A stretch of 59,047 bases of DNA, taken from NCBI GenBank assembly GCA_022071945.1, contig JAJVIN010000036.1, positions 1-59,047 on the forward strand, in the 5' to 3' direction. The position numbers and the translations under genes are program-made. The notes beneath the pieces were generated by a model, which was not told the origin of the DNA, did not search any database, and saw only the letters and a list, made by a program, of their open reading frames with translations. Of this stretch, positions 29,102-47,159 are shown piece by piece. Each line of letters starts with the position of its first letter. The stretch's first letter is position 1. The stretch comes from Thermoanaerobaculia bacterium. Lineage in GTDB: Bacteria; Acidobacteriota; Thermoanaerobaculia; UBA5066.

Positions 29102-29141
29102 CGAAAGGCTCCTTCCCTGAAGGCGGCCGGGGAGCTATCGG

Positions 29142-37749: not shown

Positions 37750-39291
37750 TCAGACGCTCTTGACTCCGGCCGGAGCGCGCAGGCCCGGGGCGAAACTCCC
37801 GGCCTTCGAGGCCTCGCGAGCAGCGGCCGCCTCGTCCAGGCGCCCGATGACGGTCGTGTGGGGCGCTCCCCTGACGAGGTCCGGTGTCTCATCGGCCTCC
37901 TTGGCGATGGCGATCATGGCGTCGATGAAGGCATCCATCTCCTCGATGGGCTCCGACTCGGTCGGCTCGATCATCAGGGCGCCCGGAACGATCAGGGGGA
38001 AGGACATCGTGGGCGGATGGAACCCGTAGTCCATCAAGCGCTTGGCGATGTCGATGTTGTGGACCCCCTTCGCCGTCTGCGCCTTGTCCGAGAAGACGAC
38101 CTCGTGGTAAGAGGGGGCGTCGTACTTCAGGTGGTAGAAGGGCTCGAGCTTCTTCCTGATGTAGTTGGCGTTCAAAACGGCGTTTTCCGCGACCTGGTGG
38201 ATCTGGCTGCCGTAGGAGAGGATGTACGTCAGGGCCCGCACGAGCACGCCGTAGTTGCCGAAGAACGTCCGCATCCGTCCGATCGAGCTCGGCCGGTTCT
38301 CGTCCAGGTAGTACATGTCTCCCTGCCGCTCCACCGTCGGAGTGGGCAGGAAGGGCACGAGGCGGGAGACGACTCCGACCGGTCCGGCTCCAGGTCCTCC
38401 CCCGCCGTGCGGGGTCGAGAACGTCTTGTGGAGGTTCATGTGCATCACGTCGGCGCCGAGGTCGGCGGGACGGACCTTGCCCACGAAGGCGTTGAAGTTG
38501 GCGCCGTCCAGGTAGACGTAGGCCCCCTTCGCGTGAACCATCTCGGTGATCGTCAGGATGTTCTCCTCGAAGACCCCGAGGGTGTTCGGAACCGTGATCA
38601 TCAGGGCCGCGACGTCCCCCGTCAGCTTCGACTCCAGCTCTCCCAGATCGAGGGTCCCCCTCGACGAGGAGGTGAGCTCCTTGACCTGGTAGCCAGCAAA
38701 ATGAGCCGTCGCCGGATTCGTCCCGTGAGCGGAATCGGGAACGAGGACCCACTTCCGCGCATCTCCGGCCTTCTGGTGCGCGGCCCGGATCATCAGCGCT
38801 CCCGTCAGCTCGCCATTGGCGCCGGCGGAGGGCTGCAGCGTCACTCTCTCGAACCCCGTCAGAACCTTCAGGCACTCCTCGAGCCGGTAGAGGAGCTCGA
38901 GACAGCCCTGGACGAGGTGAGGGGCGGTGTAGGGGTGAACGTCGGAGAACCCCGGGTAGCGGGCCGTCTCCTCATTGATCCTGGGGTTGTGCTTCATCGT
39001 GCACGACCCCAGCGAGTAGAGGGCCGTGTCGATGGCGAAGTTCATCTGGGAGAGCCGGGTGAAGTGCCTCACGACATCGACTTCCGAGAGCTCGACCTCG
39101 CCCTCGACCTCGGGCCGGAACTGGGCTCCGAAGGCCTTCGCCGGATCCGCTTCGGGAACATCGAGCGCGGGAAGAAACACTCCCCTGCGGCCCGAGGACT
39201 TCTGGTCGAAGACCGTTCCCTCCCGCCGCCTCTTGTCGAGCTGGGCCGCCACCGGGCTTTTCTCTGGCGTCAGGGTTCCGTGGTCGCTCAT
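37750..39291 (-). CDS. gcvPB: Glycine dehydrogenase (decarboxylating) subunit 2
   Basis: The 513-aa C-terminal subunit of the split P-protein, which decarboxylates glycine and passes the aminomethyl group to lipoyl-GcvH. The PLP lysine lies in MHMNLHKTFSTPHGGGGPG. Other family blocks: LYSLGSCTMKHNPRINEETA, TLQPSAGANGELTGALMIR, PDSAHGTNPATA and GADVMHMN. The ATG at 39291 shares one base with the gcvPA stop (TGATG), so translation is coupled. It is the last gene of gcvT-gcvH-gcvPA-gcvPB and is followed by a strong terminator. Confidence 0.96.
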   Translation of the reverse strand: MSDHGTLTPEKSPVAAQLDKRRREGTVFDQKSSGRRGVFLPALDVPEADPAKAFGAQFRPEVEGEVELSEVDVVRHFTRLSQMNFAIDTALYSLGSCTMKHNPRINEETARYPGFSDVHPYTAPHLVQGCLELLYRLEECLKVLTGFERVTLQPSAGANGELTGALMIRAAHQKAGDARKWVLVPDSAHGTNPATAHFAGYQVKELTSSSRGTLDLGELESKLTGDVAALMITVPNTLGVFEENILTITEMVHAKGAYVYLDGANFNAFVGKVRPADLGADVMHMNLHKTFSTPHGGGGPGAGPVGVVSRLVPFLPTPTVERQGDMYYLDENRPSSIGRMRTFFGNYGVLVRALTYILSYGSQIHQVAENAVLNANYIRKKLEPFYHLKYDAPSYHEVVFSDKAQTAKGVHNIDIAKRLMDYGFHPPTMSFPLIVPGALMIEPTESEPIEEMDAFIDAMIAIAKEADETPDLVRGAPHTTVIGRLDEAAAAREASKAGSFAPGLRAPAGVKSV

Positions 39292-40652
39292 CAGGAAAGC
39301 CTCCTCAGGACGCTGGCGAACCGGTCCATCTCCTCGCGCGTGTTCCGCTCGGTCACGGCCACGAGCAGGAGGTCGTGCCACTTCGTCTCCTCAGGGGCTA
39401 GCCGGCGGACGGGCACGCCCCCGAGGATTCTCTCCGACTCGAGCTCAGCCAGAACCCGATCGACGGGCACGCCGCACTTGACGGCGAACTCGTTGAAGGT
39501 CGGTCCGCTGAAGGCAACCGAGAAGGGTCCAGGGATCTGGGCGATGAGGCCCTTGACGTACTCGGCCTTGGCGAAGCACTGGCGGGCCGTTTCCTTCAGG
39601 CCCTGCTTTCCGAGAGCCGCGAGTGTCATCGTGGCCGCGAGCGCGAAGAGACCCTGATTGGTGCAGATGTTCGAGGTCGCCTTTTCACGCCGAATGTGCT
39701 GCTCGCGCGTCGAGAGCGTCAGGCAGAAACCCGGCCGGCCCTCGCTGTCGAACGCGCGTCCGGCGAGGCGGCCCGGGATCTGCCTCTTGTAGGCGTCCCG
39801 GCATGCCAGGAACCCGACCAGCGGCCCGCCGAACGAAGGGGGCACGCCGAAGGAAGCGGCTTCACCGCAGGCGATGTCCATGCCCGCGGCACCAGGTCCC
39901 TTCAGAGCCGAAAGCGAGAACATCTCGTTGATGGCTCCGACCGCCAGGGCTCCCTTGGCGTGAGCGCACGCCGCGGCCGCGCTCCAGTCCTCGACGACGC
40001 CCATGAAATTGGGGGACTGGACGCCGACCGCGAATGTGGCGTCGTCGACGGCATTCGCCAGGGCCGCGGAGTCCGTTCTTCCATCCTCGCCGAGCGGGAC
40101 CTCGACGATCTGGAAGGGGAAGTTCGCGAGGTAGGTCCGGAGGCAGGCCCGGTACTCCGGGTGGACCCCTTCCGAGACGACCACCTTGCTCTTCTTTTTC
40201 GTCAGCCGCTCGGCCATCAGGACGGCCTCGACGAAGGCCGAGGCCCCCTCGTACATCGAGGCGTTGGCGACGTCCATCTCCGTCAGGAGCGCGATGTGGC
40301 TCTGGAACTCGTAGATCGCCGTCAGGGTCCCCTGAGAGACCTCGGGCTGGTAGGGCGTGTAGGCCGTCAGGAACTCGCCGCGGAGCAGAAGCTGCGACAC
40401 GAACGCCGGCGAGTGGTGGCTGTAGAGGCCTCCCCCGAGAAACGACGCCCAGTCCGAAAGGGTGGCGTTTCTTGCCGCCATCCGCCCGAACTCCCTGCGA
40501 ACCTCGATTTCCGACAAGGGCGGCGGCAGTCCCGGCACCGCGTCCCTGTAGACCTCGCGGGGCACTGTCGCGAAGAGGTCGTGGATGCTCTCGGCTCCCA
40601 CGGCCTTTCTCAGCTCGGCCTGCTCGGCTTCGCTGTTGGGTATGTAACGCAT
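39291..40652 (-). CDS. gcvPA: Glycine dehydrogenase (decarboxylating) subunit 1
   Basis: The 453-aa N-terminal subunit of the split P-protein. It begins MRYIPNSEAEQAELRKAVGA and has FLGGGLYSHHSPAFVSQLLL, TAYTPYQPEVSQGTLTAIYE, MDVANASMYEGASA and SFGVPPSFGGPLVGF, all typical of the subunit. It forms the decarboxylase with GcvPB. The 166-nt gap to gcvH holds an 18-bp palindrome and a short tandem repeat, so there may be some transcript processing or partial termination before it. Confidence 0.96.
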   Translation of the reverse strand: MRYIPNSEAEQAELRKAVGAESIHDLFATVPREVYRDAVPGLPPPLSEIEVRREFGRMAARNATLSDWASFLGGGLYSHHSPAFVSQLLLRGEFLTAYTPYQPEVSQGTLTAIYEFQSHIALLTEMDVANASMYEGASAFVEAVLMAERLTKKKSKVVVSEGVHPEYRACLRTYLANFPFQIVEVPLGEDGRTDSAALANAVDDATFAVGVQSPNFMGVVEDWSAAAACAHAKGALAVGAINEMFSLSALKGPGAAGMDIACGEAASFGVPPSFGGPLVGFLACRDAYKRQIPGRLAGRAFDSEGRPGFCLTLSTREQHIRREKATSNICTNQGLFALAATMTLAALGKQGLKETARQCFAKAEYVKGLIAQIPGPFSVAFSGPTFNEFAVKCGVPVDRVLAELESERILGGVPVRRLAPEETKWHDLLLVAVTERNTREEMDRFASVLRRLS

Positions 40653-40730
40653 CCGGGTCCTTTCTTGCCGGATGTTCCGAGCCCTCAGGACCTTTTCTTC
40701 GCGGCCCGCGCCCGGCCATCCGTGTGAGTC

Positions 40731-40748
40731 GGGGCTCGGCCGAGCCCC
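40731..40748. repeat. 18-bp perfect palindrome between gcvH and gcvPA
   Basis: A GC-only palindrome (half-site GGGGCTCGG) lies in the 166-nt gcvH-gcvPA gap. It can form a stable hairpin but has no T-run, so it is better seen as an RNA processing or stability element than as a full terminator. Confidence 0.5.
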
Positions 40749-40796
40749 GGATTGGCTACGCCGGGCCGGGCTCCCTCTGAAGGAGCGGGCTCAGCC

Positions 40797-40824
40797 CCTG
40801 AGGCTCAGGCCCTGAGGCTCAGGC
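40797..40824. repeat. 14-bp tandem duplication over the gcvH stop codon
   Basis: The unit cctgaggctcaggc occurs twice in tandem. The second copy contains the gcvH stop codon (40819-40821, minus strand). Each unit also has internal dyad symmetry (CCTGAG/CTCAGG). Confidence 0.8.
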
Positions 40825-41214
40825 CTTCGCTTCTTCCTGGACGAACGCCTCGTACTGAGAGGCGGACATCAGTCCCTCGACCTCGCCGCCCGATGCGACG
40901 CGGATCTTGACGAGCCAGCCCTCTCCGTACGGATCCTCGTTGATGGCTCCTGGTTCGTCGTTGAGGTTCTTGTTGATCTCGAGGATCTCTCCGGCCACCG
41001 GGAGGAAGAGCTCGGAAACGGCCTTGACGGACTCGATGGTGCCGAATTCCTGGTCCGCGTCGAAAAGCTCTCCCGCATCGGGAAGATCGACGAAGACGAC
41101 CTCGCCCAGCTCCTTCTGCGCGTGGTCGGTGATTCCGATCGTGGCGACGTCGCCCTCGATCCGAATCCATTCATGGCTCTTGGTGTACTGCCTGTCATCC
41201 GGGCACGAACTCAT
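40819..41214 (-). CDS. gcvH: Glycine cleavage system H protein
   Basis: The 131-aa lipoyl carrier of the glycine cleavage system. The lipoylated lysine is Lys64 in FGTIESVKAVSELF. SHEWIRIEGDVATIGITDHA and GEVVFVDLPDAGELFDAD form the characteristic hammerhead fold, and NDEPGAINEDPYGEGWLVKI is the conserved C-terminal block. It starts at an ATG 85 nt after the gcvT stop, with a terminator-like hairpin in between. Confidence 0.97.
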   Translation of the reverse strand: MSSCPDDRQYTKSHEWIRIEGDVATIGITDHAQKELGEVVFVDLPDAGELFDADQEFGTIESVKAVSELFLPVAGEILEINKNLNDEPGAINEDPYGEGWLVKIRVASGGEVEGLMSASQYEAFVQEEAKA

Positions 41215-41230
41215 GGTTCTCCTCTTTTAG

Positions 41231-41268
41231 AAAAGGGAAAAGGCTCTCTTTTTGGATAGAGAGCCTTT
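41231..41268 (-). terminator. Terminator-like hairpin between gcvT and gcvH
   Basis: A 10-bp stem (AAAGGCTCTC pairing with GAGAGCCTTT, 41239-41268) is followed on the minus strand by TTCCCTTTTC. It probably lowers read-through from gcvT into gcvH, or acts as a processing site. I see no alternative antiterminator fold. Confidence 0.6.
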
Positions 41269-41299
41269 CTCCGACATTCGGGCAGGGGCAAAAAGGGGG

Positions 41300-42415
41300 T
41301 CACTTGGTGCCTGGCCGCTTGTAGAAGGGAGTCGGGACGACCACCGCCGCCACTCCCTTTCCGCGAATCTCGATCTCGAATTCCGTGCCCACCGCGGTCC
41401 GGTCAGCGGGAACGAGCGCGAGGCCGATCGCCTTGCCGACCGTGGGCGGCTGGGTTCCGGACGTCACGACGCCGGTGGCGCCGTCCGGGAACCTCACCGG
41501 ATACCCGTGCCGGGCGATCCCGCGGCCCACGACCGCAAAGCCGGCGAGCTTGCGGGGCACGCCCGCGGCCTTTTGGGCCTCGAGAGCGGCTCGTCCGATG
41601 AAGTCGCCCTTTTTCATCTTCACGATCCAGCCGAGGTCGGCCTCCCACGGTGTCACCGTGTCGTCGATGTCGTTGCCGTAAAGGGCCATCTTCGCCTCGA
41701 GGCGCAGGGTGTCCCGCGCGCCGAGACCGGCGAGGGCGATCCCGAAGGGCTTCCCAGCCTCGAGGATGGCGTCCCAGACGGTCACGGCGCCCTCGGGGGC
41801 GCAGTAAACCTCGAAACCGTCCTCGCCCGTGTAGCCGGTGCGAGAGACGATCCCGCTGACCCCGGCGACCTCCGTGATCGTGAAGGCGTAGTAGCCGATC
41901 GCCGGGAGGTCCGCTTTCGTGAGGGACTGGAGGATCTCCTGCGAGCGGGGGCCCTGCAGGGCGATCTGGGCCCACTTCGGGGACTCGTCCTCAACCGTCG
42001 CGCCGTCGATCTCGTGGGCCTTGGCCCAGGCGACGTCCTTCGGCGTGTTTCCCGCGTTGACCACGAGCAGAAAGTCATCGGAGGCGATCCGGTACGTGAG
42101 GAGGTCGTCCACGAACGTCCCCTGATCGGTCAAGAAGGCCGAGTACTGGATCCGTCCGTCGGCCAGAGCGCCCGCATCGTTGCAGGTCAGCTTCTGCACG
42201 AGCGCCAGGGCACGCGGGCCCCGGATCCGGATCTCGCCCATGTGGGAGACGTCGAAAAGTCCGGCGCGAGTCCGAACGGCGATGTGCTCGTCGGTGAGAC
42301 CGGAGAACTGGACGGGCATCTCCCATCCGGCGAAGTCCACGATCTTGCCACCCAGAGCTCTGTGGCGGTCGAAGAGAGGTGTGCGCTTGAGGGGAAGGCC
42401 GGCAGGTTCCGTCAT
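41300..42415 (-). CDS. gcvT: Aminomethyltransferase (glycine cleavage T protein)
   Basis: The 371-aa folate-dependent T protein releases ammonia from aminomethyl-GcvH and makes methylene-tetrahydrofolate. Blocks: KRTPLFDRHRALGGKIVDFA, GWEMPVQFSG, RTRAGLFDVSHMGEIRIRG, VSGIVSRTGYTGEDGFEVYC and ARDTLRLEAKMALYGNDID. It is the first gene of the operon. The 81-nt region upstream is too short, and lacks the conserved elements, for a glycine riboswitch. Confidence 0.96.
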   Translation of the reverse strand: MTEPAGLPLKRTPLFDRHRALGGKIVDFAGWEMPVQFSGLTDEHIAVRTRAGLFDVSHMGEIRIRGPRALALVQKLTCNDAGALADGRIQYSAFLTDQGTFVDDLLTYRIASDDFLLVVNAGNTPKDVAWAKAHEIDGATVEDESPKWAQIALQGPRSQEILQSLTKADLPAIGYYAFTITEVAGVSGIVSRTGYTGEDGFEVYCAPEGAVTVWDAILEAGKPFGIALAGLGARDTLRLEAKMALYGNDIDDTVTPWEADLGWIVKMKKGDFIGRAALEAQKAAGVPRKLAGFAVVGRGIARHGYPVRFPDGATGVVTSGTQPPTVGKAIGLALVPADRTAVGTEFEIEIRGKGVAAVVVPTPFYKRPGTK

Positions 42416-43433: not shown

Positions 43434-44981
43434 TCAGTTCGCCAAGGCGGCCGTCGGCACCGGCGTCGGAACCGGCGCCTCGGCCCCCGTCCCCGGGATC
43501 GCGATTCCCACCGAGACCGGAGCCTGAGGGGACTCGGTCGAGGGCGGCAAACTGATCGGGAACGTCGGCAGCGGAGGCACAGGGGTCGGCGTCGGGACCG
43601 CCTTGAGCGCGGCCTGCCGCCTCACCTCCGACACGGCGAAGAGAATCGCGCTCAAGAGGATCACGAGCGAGAGGCCGATGAGCGAGTAGCGCCACAGCTT
43701 GTCTTTCTTGACGGCCTCGGAAGCCTCGGCCGTGCCGGGCGCGGGCTCCGGCGGAGCGGGTTTTGCGCCCTCGGCCGCGGGCGGAGGAGCCGGCGGCGTC
43801 AGCGGGGGCGGGGGCGGATTCCCCTTCTGCTTCCCTGGTTTCGGGGGATTCGCTTCTTCCTTCTTCGAAAGGAACGGGGGCGGGGACGCCAGGTCCCGCT
43901 TGGGCGGCTCGGGCGGAGGCGGGGCCTTCTTTTCCTTGGGTCTTCCCTCGGGAGGCGGAGGCGCGACGGGCGACGGCGCCGAGGCCGTCTCCACCGCCGC
44001 GGGCAGGTCCCCGGGAGGGGGAGGCGCCCCAGGGTGGTGGCGGGAGGGCATCTTCATCACGATCTGGATCGTGGGTCCCTCCGAGGGCGGCGCGACCGTG
44101 GCCTTCGGCCGCCGGATCCGGCTGTCGCTGAGACCCGCGAGCACTCCCGGGAGGTTCACGAGCTCCCGAAGGTCCTGGGCCACTTCGGCGGCGTCCGCGT
44201 AGCGCTCGTCCCGGTTCTTGGCGAGCATCCGCTTCAGGACCGTGCCGACCTCGTGGGGAATGTCCTCGCGAATCGTCGTCGGATCGTCGGGCTCCTCGTT
44301 GAGGATCTGCAGGACGAGGGTCGTCAAGGTCTCGGCCGGAAACGGCCGCTTGAACGTCAGGGTCTGGTAGAGGACGATGCCGAGCGAGAAGATGTCGCTT
44401 CTCGAGTCGAGCTTCTCGCCCCGGATCTGCTCCGGCGACATGTAGGCCGGGGACCCGACCATCTGGCCGGCGCTCGTCAACTCGACATCGCCCCAGATGA
44501 TCTTGCCGATGCCGAAATCCGTGACCTTGGCGGCGAGAGTGTCGGTCAGGAGGATGTTCGCGGGCTTGATGTCTCTGTGGATGACCCCGCGCTCGTGAGC
44601 GTAGCCGAGGGCATCGGCAACCTCCGCCACGATCCGGATGCGATCCACGACCGGGACGGCCGTGGGCGGCCCCGTGAGCTTGTCGGCCAGGCTTCCCCCG
44701 CTGACGAACTCCATGGCCAAAAAGAGCGTTCCCTCGTGCTCCCCGACGTCGTAGAGGGTGACGATGTTCGGATGCTGGAGCTTTCCGGAAATGCGCGCCT
44801 CGCGCTTGAACCGGGCCTTCGCCTCGTCCGGATCGAACCCGCCTCCCGATTCGTTGAACTGGATGGTCTTGAGCGCGATGATGCGTTCGATTTCAGGATC
44901 GCGCGCCAGGTACACGACGCCCATGGCGCCCTTGCCGAGCTCCCGCAGGATCTCGTACCGTCCGATCTTGTTGTTATCCAC
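43434..44981 (-). CDS. Membrane Ser/Thr protein kinase (PknB-like)
   Basis: This 515-aa protein has an N-terminal Hanks-type kinase (residues 1-270): Gly loop LGKGAMGVVYLAR, Lys in IALKTIQFN, HRDIKPANILL near 134, DFGIGK near 154 and an activation-segment end GSPAYMSPEQIRGEK. A long Pro/Ala linker (about 290-425) precedes one membrane segment (WRYSLIGLSLVILLSAILFA) and a short external Pro/Thr tail with no PASTA repeats. It probably signals across the membrane. The DUF2007-like gene ends 18 nt upstream of its start codon on the same strand, suggesting co-transcription. The many proline runs should need EF-P. Confidence 0.92.
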   Translation of the reverse strand: MDNNKIGRYEILRELGKGAMGVVYLARDPEIERIIALKTIQFNESGGGFDPDEAKARFKREARISGKLQHPNIVTLYDVGEHEGTLFLAMEFVSGGSLADKLTGPPTAVPVVDRIRIVAEVADALGYAHERGVIHRDIKPANILLTDTLAAKVTDFGIGKIIWGDVELTSAGQMVGSPAYMSPEQIRGEKLDSRSDIFSLGIVLYQTLTFKRPFPAETLTTLVLQILNEEPDDPTTIREDIPHEVGTVLKRMLAKNRDERYADAAEVAQDLRELVNLPGVLAGLSDSRIRRPKATVAPPSEGPTIQIVMKMPSRHHPGAPPPPGDLPAAVETASAPSPVAPPPPEGRPKEKKAPPPPEPPKRDLASPPPFLSKKEEANPPKPGKQKGNPPPPPLTPPAPPPAAEGAKPAPPEPAPGTAEASEAVKKDKLWRYSLIGLSLVILLSAILFAVSEVRRQAALKAVPTPTPVPPLPTFPISLPPSTESPQAPVSVGIAIPGTGAEAPVPTPVPTAALAN

Positions 44982-44999
44982 GAACCGATAACCTTACCA

Positions 45000-45362
45000 T
45001 CACGCCTCTTTGTTCGGTTCCGGCTCGGCTGACTCGTCGATTGAGACCATGCCGTCCTCGGTCAAGACTGTCTCTTCCCCTTCCTTGGCCGACGCGAACT
45101 CCTTCTCGCGGTTCGCCAGGGCGGCCCGGGCGGCCTCGAGCTGAGAAGCGGGGACCGCGATCACGACATCCATCAGTTCCTCGTTCTGCGCCGGAACCTG
45201 GTGGAGGCTCCTGTCCACTATGGAAGCGCGGAAGCCCATGGACTCCAGGAATCCGACGACCAGGGCGGCCTCGGCCTCCCCGCCGGCCTCCTCGAGAGCC
45301 TCCCACGGCTCCTCGACAGCCTGCTCCGGGGTCTCTTCCTCGCGTTCGTCACGTGGTTCCAT
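45000..45362 (-). CDS. DUF2007-like signal-transducing small protein (120 aa)
   Basis: It has an acidic N-terminal tail, then a ferredoxin-like core: EAEAALVVGFLESMGFRASI and ELMDVVIAVPASQLEAARAA. This resembles the DUF2007 family (putative prokaryotic signal-transducing protein), where the helix-strand pair is followed by a V-P-x-x-x-x-E-A segment. The C-terminal 25 residues are acidic and probably disordered. It is cytoplasmic. It lies between selD and the kinase gene, on the same strand and with short gaps. Confidence 0.7.
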   Translation of the reverse strand: MEPRDEREEETPEQAVEEPWEALEEAGGEAEAALVVGFLESMGFRASIVDRSLHQVPAQNEELMDVVIAVPASQLEAARAALANREKEFASAKEGEETVLTEDGMVSIDESAEPEPNKEA

Positions 45363-45392: not shown

Positions 45393-46505
45393 TCAGGGCC
45401 GGATCCGGATGCGCGCCTGGCGCGTTTCTTCTTCGAGAACTCTCCCAATTATCCTCGCCATCACCCCTTCCGCCTCGGCTCGCTTGACGAAATCCGATGC
45501 GTCCTTCTCCTCTAGGGCAAGGAGGAGCCCTCCGGAAGTCTGGGCATCGCATAAGAGAAGAAGGGTGCTCTCGGCAACGGACGAGGGGGCTTCCAGAAAC
45601 GGACGCTGGGTCTCGAGGTTCCGGACAGACCCGTCAGGAGCGATTCCAGCTTCCGCAAGACGCTCAGCCCCGGGCAGATACGGGATCGCGTCGAGCCAGA
45701 GCTCGGCGCACCGGGCCGGGGGACCAAGAAGCATCTCGCGCAGGTGACCGGCAAGACCGTATCCCGTGACATCTGTACACGCGGAGACTCGCAGGCCCCT
45801 CGCGAGTCTGGCAGGCGCGTCGTTCAGGGAGGCCATGACCTCCACGGCCGTCCGTTCCTCCTCGGCCGAGATCTCCGGTCCTCGCCGGAAGAAGCCTCCG
45901 AGCGCCCGGGCCCGAAGCGCGGAGGCGACCACTCCCGAGCCGAGAGGTTTCGTCAGGACCAAGGCGTCTCCGGCACGAACGCCCACGTTCCGCCAGATGT
46001 CGCCAAGCCGGGCCCTGCCCGTGACCGCCATCCCGAAGACCGGCACGTCAAAGTCGACGGAATGGCCGCCGAGCACCGGGATACCCGCGCGCCGGGCCGT
46101 CTCGCTTCCGCCTGAAACGATCTCGGTGAGGACCTCCAGCGGGAGATCCTTCACCGGGAACCCGACGATGTTGAGCGCGAAGAGCGGCTCGCCCCCCATC
46201 GCATAGATGTCCGAGAGCGAGTTGGCCGCGGCCACGCGGCCGAAGTCGAAGGGCGACTCCACGATCGGGGTGAAGAAATCGATGGTCGAAAGAATCGTCT
46301 CGGCGGACGGATCCGAAGGGTCGCCAAGGCAGTAAGCGGCTGCGTCGTCTGACGAAGACACCCCGACCACGGACCGGCCATCGGACGGCCTCGGAATCGT
46401 GGCCAGGATCCTCGCCAGGTCAGCCTGACCCAGCTTGCACGCTCACCCCGCCGCGGAGGCAAACGTCAGGATCGAGCGGTGGGTCTTCTTGCCCAGGATG
46501 GTCAT
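45393..46505 (-). CDS. selD: Selenide, water dikinase (selenophosphate synthetase) with in-frame UGA (Sec)
   Basis: The gene must be read through a TGA at 46443-46445 to include the catalytic loop: ATG at 46505, then MTILGKKTHRSILTFASAAG, UGA at residue 21, ACKLGQADLARILAT. In E. coli SelD the same loop is GAGCGCK, and the UGA falls on the catalytic Cys17; the next Cys and the essential Lys are kept (ACK). The rest (370 aa in total) is complete: SSSDDAAAY, TIDFFTPIVESPFDFGRVAA, NSLSDIYAMGGEP, LGGHSVDFDVPVFG, TDVTGYGLAGHL and DAQTSGGLLLAL. SelD makes selenophosphate for selenocysteine and selenouridine synthesis. Sec-containing SelD is well known. An automatic call would start too late, at the GTG at 46370. 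Confidence 0.93.
46414..46434 (-). promoter_or_regulatory. SECIS-like hairpin after the selD UGA
   Basis: Eight nt after the UGA, a 9-bp stem (GCTGGGTCA with TGACCTGGC, two G-T pairs) closes the loop GGC, which starts 18 nt after the UGA. The G at the first loop position and the distance fit a bacterial SECIS and closely match the hairpin in the thioredoxin-like gene. Confidence 0.7.
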
Positions 46506-46523: not shown

Positions 46524-47159
46524 TCAGGAGAGCTTGGCGAGCTTGGCCACGTCGATCGAGGAGTAGACCTTCCGGACGAAGTCGGGTTCCACGCCGCTCG
46601 CGCGGATCGTGATGACGAAGCGCTTGTTCACGACGATCGAGAGCTCACCCCGCTTCGACTCCTTCTCCCACTTCTCGACGCCCGGGTTCTCCCCGATCGT
46701 CACGCCCTTCTCGTACCCCTCGGTCGATTCCCGCGAAAACTGTGACGCCATGGCCACGAAGGCATAGATCGGGGCGTTGAAGGCTCCATCCATAAGAGTG
46801 ACCTCGAGATCCTGCCCTTCCTTCGAATAGTTCCTTTCGGCCTGGGAGATCTTGAACCCCATCGCGGCCGTGGTTTCCCCGCGGGGTTCCTGCGCCTCGA
46901 AGCCGGACGGCGCGGCGGGCAAAAGCTCGATGAGCTTCGAGAAGTGCACGGGCTCGACGGGTTTTTGAGATTCCATCTCCTTGGCGGCCTTGGCGGCCTT
47001 CTCCGCGGCGTCGCTGATCTGCTTCATCGCGGCGATCGGGTTGTTGGAAAGCTCCTTTCCCTCCTCGACGGGCTTGGGAGCCTCTTCCTTGCGGCATCCC
47101 GAGAAGACGAACCCGCACAGGGCAACGAGGCAGACGAACGTGGTGAGTTTCTTTTTCAC
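46524..47159 (-). CDS. Lipoprotein of unknown function (211 aa)
   Basis: It has a lipoprotein signal: MKKKLTTFVCLVALCGFVFS followed by GC (lipobox FSGC). A helical Lys/Glu/Ala stretch (AMKQISDAAEKAAKAAKEME) leads to a strand-rich domain (FEAQEPRGETTAAMGFKISQ; ELSIVVNKRFVITIRASGVE) of a kind seen in periplasmic lipoproteins with unknown ligands. It should be anchored to a membrane facing the periplasm. It ends 18 nt before the selD start on the same strand, so the two may be co-transcribed. I do not recognise a named family. Confidence 0.75.
   Translation of the reverse strand: MKKKLTTFVCLVALCGFVFSGCRKEEAPKPVEEGKELSNNPIAAMKQISDAAEKAAKAAKEMESQKPVEPVHFSKLIELLPAAPSGFEAQEPRGETTAAMGFKISQAERNYSKEGQDLEVTLMDGAFNAPIYAFVAMASQFSRESTEGYEKGVTIGENPGVEKWEKESKRGELSIVVNKRFVITIRASGVEPDFVRKVYSSIDVAKLAKLS

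Follow-up and report, generated by a model that had tools for sequence, protein, structure and literature searches.

The 59,047-nt stretch of Thermoanaerobaculia DNA analysed here (the window) carries on its minus strand, at positions 45393 to 46505, a reading frame that opens with ATG at 46505, ends with a TGA at 45393-45395, and contains an in-frame TGA at 46443-46445. When this internal TGA is translated as selenocysteine (Sec, U), the product has 370 residues with U at residue 21, and it scores 321.4 bits against TIGR00476 (curated cut-off 125) and 307.1 bits against NF002098 (cut-off 299). In the printed alignment with structure 3u0o, which we take to be E. coli SelD, U21 lies on Cys17 and Lys24 on Lys20, the positions at which the preliminary description had placed the UGA and a conserved flanking lysine; the catalytic Cys/Sec and the Lys three residues further on, which together mark SelD membership, are thus both present. 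The UGA stands at a conserved catalytic Cys site with the frame conserved on either side, the arrangement by which bacterial selenoproteins are recognised, and the gene can be assigned with near certainty as encoding a predicted Sec-containing selenide, water dikinase (selenophosphate synthetase). With an internal UGA at residue 21 and a terminal TGA, UGA would serve as both Sec and stop within this one gene. Plain ORF calling begins the gene at a GTG (46368-46370, minus strand), exactly 45 codons downstream of the real start, as had been noticed beforehand; in close relatives, the ATG or GTG start of selD is about as far upstream of the UGA. The annotation is corrected accordingly, since ordinary gene calling drops both the 45 codons and the catalytic residue of selD.

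The genes around selD are partly shared with relatives. Adjoining it downstream is a small DUF2007-like gene (45000-45362, minus strand; weak match to NF040569, 20 bits, below cut-off), which is also next to Sec-selD in six loci of the same family (L021-L026) and in L050 and L051; in the last two, SelD is the same as in L023 and L026. The family members G138 and G139 share identical SelDs with the named metagenome-assembled genomes of L051 and L050, respectively, which places the family in Acidobacteriota, probably in the class Thermoanaerobaculia. The next gene codes for a Ser/Thr protein kinase (43434-44981, minus strand; PF00069) that is syntenic with Sec-selD in the order, with identities of 62-67% in L021-L026, L050, and L051, and 49-55% in L027, L028, L033, and L042. 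Families f2 and f3, which are related, also have the kinase gene near Sec-selD, so the selD locus is old in the order. Directly upstream of selD is a gene without a Pfam or NCBIfam match (46524-47159, minus strand), for which tblastn searches near selD in relatives returned its own locus only. We note that glycine cleavage genes (P-protein subunit and T-protein; 39291-42415, minus strand) lie a few kb downstream of selD, and that gcvT is near Sec-selD in L051 and L175 as well.

The genome assembly to which the window belongs (6.17 Mb in 69 contigs, 96% complete) has one selA match over the cut-off (433 bits against 267.9), one full-length selB match (299 bits, cut-off 242.25) with the C-terminal SelB winged-helix domain, and one tRNA-Sec with anticodon UCA (TCA) and the tRNA-Sec fold; the window itself contains no tRNA, and an Rfam scan of it gave no matches. 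A tRNA-Ser of the window's genome likewise exceeds the 47-bit cut-off used for tRNA-Sec, so that class-wide counts of tRNA-Sec are upper bounds. Two other genomes have selA, tRNA-Sec, and Sec-selD adjacent to one another (G022, contig C153, 46509-49436; G057, contig C342, 79964-84814), and in the window's genome the three are on separate contigs; G057 has two Sec-SelDs (L187 and L191) and two strong tRNA-Sec matches.

A second UGA-containing gene of the genome encodes an AhpC/TSA peroxiredoxin on contig C26 (L234:1417-1956, minus strand), with a TGA at 29107-29109 in the motif TGG-U-TQEC. This TGA falls on a cysteine column of the solved relative 4x1u, at the peroxidatic Cys position, and is followed by a 7-bp hairpin with loop GUGAG that 4.4% of synonymous recodings equal. 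It is the only one of the genome's 13 AhpC/TSA matches with a TGA, and probably represents a second selenoprotein; as a second UGA gene it supports decoding of UGA as Sec. The search for selenoproteins covered five families (SelD, FdhA, Rdx/SelW, AhpC/TSA, and CMD). None of the 18 TIGR01591 matches for Sec formate dehydrogenase is over the cut-off or has an internal stop, Rdx/SelW has no match in the genome, and both AhpD/CMD matches are without TGA. The genome also has no match to selenouridine synthase (TIGR03167), so of the two uses of selenium looked for, Sec and selenouridine, Sec is the only one found. Zhang et al. 2006 (PMC1794560) describe Sec-decoding organisms without FdhA as having Sec-SelD, a pattern that the window's genome fits.

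To place the gene among its relatives, SelD was surveyed in 148 genomes of the class at a threshold of E<=1e-40, beyond which more distant or broken SelDs fall. A match is present in 106 genomes and 42 have none at this threshold. The 121 matches divide into 81 with UGA at the catalytic site, 39 with Cys, and one truncated there; by genome, 67 have one Sec-SelD only, one has two Sec-SelDs, 12 have both a Sec and a Cys form, 25 have Cys types only, and one could not be assigned. Family f13 (G062-G085) is without SelD at 1e-40 despite selA matches, and may have a divergent SelD or one of a different type. Frames of 683 aa with a TGA in G144-G146 were considered as a new fusion and rejected, the extension being a compositionally odd out-of-gene frame and the SelD having its own ATG; similarly, the 'TGA' in the fusion match of G146 lies elsewhere than at the catalytic residue, which is a Cys.

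Immediately 3' of the UGA, the window can form a 9-bp hairpin (46414-46434, minus strand) with a 3-nt loop, GGC (46423-46425), 17 nt from the UGA. Bacterial SECIS elements are hairpins directly 3' of the UGA with a G early in the loop and a spacing of 16 to 37 nt, and the selD hairpin conforms to this rule with its 17 nt to the GGC loop. Taken alone, this hairpin does not exceed chance: the lowest-energy structure of the 53 nt lacks it (z -0.14), and 7.0% of synonymous recodings equal it (p 0.070). Of the earlier proposal of a 9-bp hairpin at SECIS distance, the stem and its spacing stand and are backed across the class, but the window sequence on its own gives the hairpin no distinction. Single-sequence folding, in which another fold is preferred, was replaced by class-wide tests as SECIS evidence.

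These tests separate Sec genes from Cys genes. The best stem at about the expected distance has a mean energy of -8.48 kcal/mol in the 81 Sec genes, compared with -2.82 in protein-preserving recodings; the 39 Cys genes average -2.87, compared with -2.17 in synonymous recodings. Taken gene by gene, 50 of the 81 Sec genes reach p<=0.05 and 31 fall short, and 2 of the 39 Cys genes reach it. Of the 76 distinct Sec sequences, 72 can form at least four of five core pairs (59 with a 3-nt loop, 13 with a 4-nt loop), as can 8 of 39 Cys sequences with either loop length; four Sec sequences misfit this geometry, one of which, L153, has another strong stem. Stem pairs covary among the Sec genes, with pair 19-23 being C-G in 39 and A-T in 25 of the 81, and pair 17-25 being T-A in 58 and C-G in 11, and part of these changes also alter amino acids. 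Codon choice shows the same constraint: all 29 Sec genes of the K[L/I]GQxDL type use GGT for the stem Gly, and GGT accounts for 167 of the 1086 Gly codons across those genes (stem codons included). The two Cys genes of this type (L028 and L046, with catalytic TGC) have GGA or GGG at the stem position. Their genomes (G132 and G011, respectively) retain selA and tRNA-Sec matches, suggesting that the switch to Cys arose in Sec-decoding genomes and that the hairpin decayed afterwards. Common ancestry inflates all of these hairpin counts, which are not independent events, and synonymous and column shuffles leave the kinship in; the evidence is nonetheless convincing that a SECIS hairpin is selected in the Sec genes of the class and absent as a signal in the Cys genes. 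The Cys-type SelD of L216 (G086), located in a long frame, has a very strong stem (-19.8 kcal/mol) at about SECIS distance, which is either a remnant or chance.

Two readings of the UGA other than Sec can be weighed against these data. Read-through by an ordinary tRNA, with Cys or Trp inserted for instance, can be practically dismissed: Sec at residue 21 is read from sequence, but the genome has a tRNA with the UCA anticodon and tRNA-Sec fold together with selA and selB, the hairpin signal of Sec genes is missing from Cys genes, and selD itself also ends in UGA. It is also very improbable that the UGA is a stop created by nonsense mutation, with selD either a pseudogene or starting at GTG 46370 without its catalytic loop, and with selenophosphate made solely by the NifS-SelD fusion described below. 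Such a loss could be tolerable, as that fusion is a second intact, Cys-type SelD in the same genome. However, UGA is kept in 81 of the 121 SelDs of the class, the frame upstream of it is conserved, the hairpin is under selection, and the Sec machinery is present. The preliminary description took UGA to be decoded as Sec in this genome and tied the nonsense reading to an absence of selA, selB, and selC; all three are found, along with the second UGA gene, so decoding as Sec is upheld and the nonsense reading fails.

In the favoured scheme for the Sec-SelD, Sec would be inserted at residue 21 in the cell by SelB acting with Sec-tRNA-Sec and the hairpin that follows the UGA. Sec21 would then act as the nucleophile of a flexible N-terminal loop, handing selenium to ATP-dependent phosphorylation, and the selenophosphate produced would feed SelA, the maker of Sec-tRNA. 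The Sec-tRNA would in turn serve translation of SelD itself and of at least one further probable selenoprotein, the peroxiredoxin. The SelD of the window is in these respects an ordinary Sec-SelD, an arrangement long described, for example in Haemophilus influenzae. Like other members of Sec-SelD/SPS2 (TIGR00476), it has a catalytic Sec, a bacterial SECIS directly behind its UGA, and selA, selB, and selC in the genome; we see no essential difference, other than that the class is Sec-rich (81 of 121 SelD matches at E<=1e-40). As was already recognised in the preliminary description, Sec-SelD is not new by itself, and Mariotti et al. 2015 (PMC4561486) report that 19% of the SelD genes in a 223-genome reference set have Sec.

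The same genome encodes a second SelD outside the window, on contig C7 (L002:316-2523, plus strand), where a single open frame of 735 aa joins a NifS-like desulfurase to a C-terminal SelD. PF00266 (aminotransferase class V) matches at 4-364, and TIGR00476 matches with 396 bits. The SelD active site is GMG-C-ACK without a TGA, and is thus of the Cys type. The desulfurase motifs AGHK and GAACHA are present, containing what are presumably the PLP lysine (GHK) and the catalytic cysteine (GAACH), and among solved structures it is nearest to cysteine desulfurases (322 bits), with mammalian Sec lyase further off at 236 bits; either cysteine or selenocysteine may be its substrate. Counting as fusions those with a NifS-like score of at least 200, there are ten in the class; both motifs are intact in all ten, all ten carry Cys, and seven of the ten genomes also have a separate Sec-SelD. 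L197 was left out, with a NifS-like score of 195 and no GAACH motif. The placement of a NifS-like desulfurase N-terminal to SelD is that of NifS-SelD (NifS-SPS), for which PMC4561486 gives two prokaryotic instances; PMC2398784 reports one in Geobacter sp. FRC-32 that carries Sec, in contrast to the Cys of all ten class fusions.

Within the window's family, 6 of 14 genomes have the fusion at E<=1e-40, including the window's own, so it is not universal there. These six fusions form one clade spanning four genera (SH-aLRT 100; 100/99 in a second tree), but no such clade unites the Sec-SelDs that accompany them, which belong to unrelated lineages in different genera: the window type is in G000 and G143, and another type, with its nearest kin in f9, a different family, is in G142, G144, G145, and G146. 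A third type, near f7, occurs in G141, where the fusion has no match. A tree in which the window type groups with the G142-G146 type is worse by 63.8 log-likelihood units (AU p 5.7e-06, with 50 of 137 rows in the test), a p value that is not a clean prior test because the group was picked after the first tree. With the fusions in one clade and the Sec-SelDs scattered, the Cys fusion looks constant and the Sec-SelD exchanged; ancient paralogy followed by losses would leave much the same picture. The open-access literature searched describes neither this pattern of a constant Cys fusion with an exchanged Sec partner nor an Acidobacteriota genome that has Sec-SelD alongside NifS-SelD. Each of the two is already in print by itself, the NifS-SelD fusion from very few genomes.

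The co-occurrence of the two forms raises the question of how a Sec enzyme needed for its own translation is started up, and whether a Cys copy acts as starter; the 12 of 106 genomes with Sec and Cys SelDs side by side are a natural setting for it. The Cys-type fusion would also make selenophosphate, a source independent of Sec for its own synthesis, and it could restart Sec-SelD synthesis after selenium starvation. That the genome's two SelDs instead do the same job, the pair being mere redundancy after gene transfer, is nearly as likely as not. A partner is dispensable in 67 of the 80 genomes with Sec-SelD, which have no other SelD at 1e-40, so a starter copy is not required in general. On the other side, the fusion clade persists in six genomes and four genera of the family, all with the GHK and GAACH motifs intact. 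We put forward only tentatively, and as rather unlikely in its full form, a split of the family's selenophosphate supply, in which a stable Cys fusion that can be made without selenium would restart the system or recycle from cysteine or selenocysteine, and a fast, repeatedly exchanged Sec-SelD would make most of the selenophosphate whenever selenium is abundant.

Fusions of a further kind offer a parallel to such pairs. Ndh-SelD differs from the C7 fusion in its partner domain, and the SelDs of the window's genome include no Ndh-type copy. Like the C7 fusion, a Cys-type SelD with an N-terminal extension accompanies the Sec form in several of the class genomes; judged by their length and a CGGCAAK motif, these open frames of about 750 aa would be Ndh-SelD fusions.
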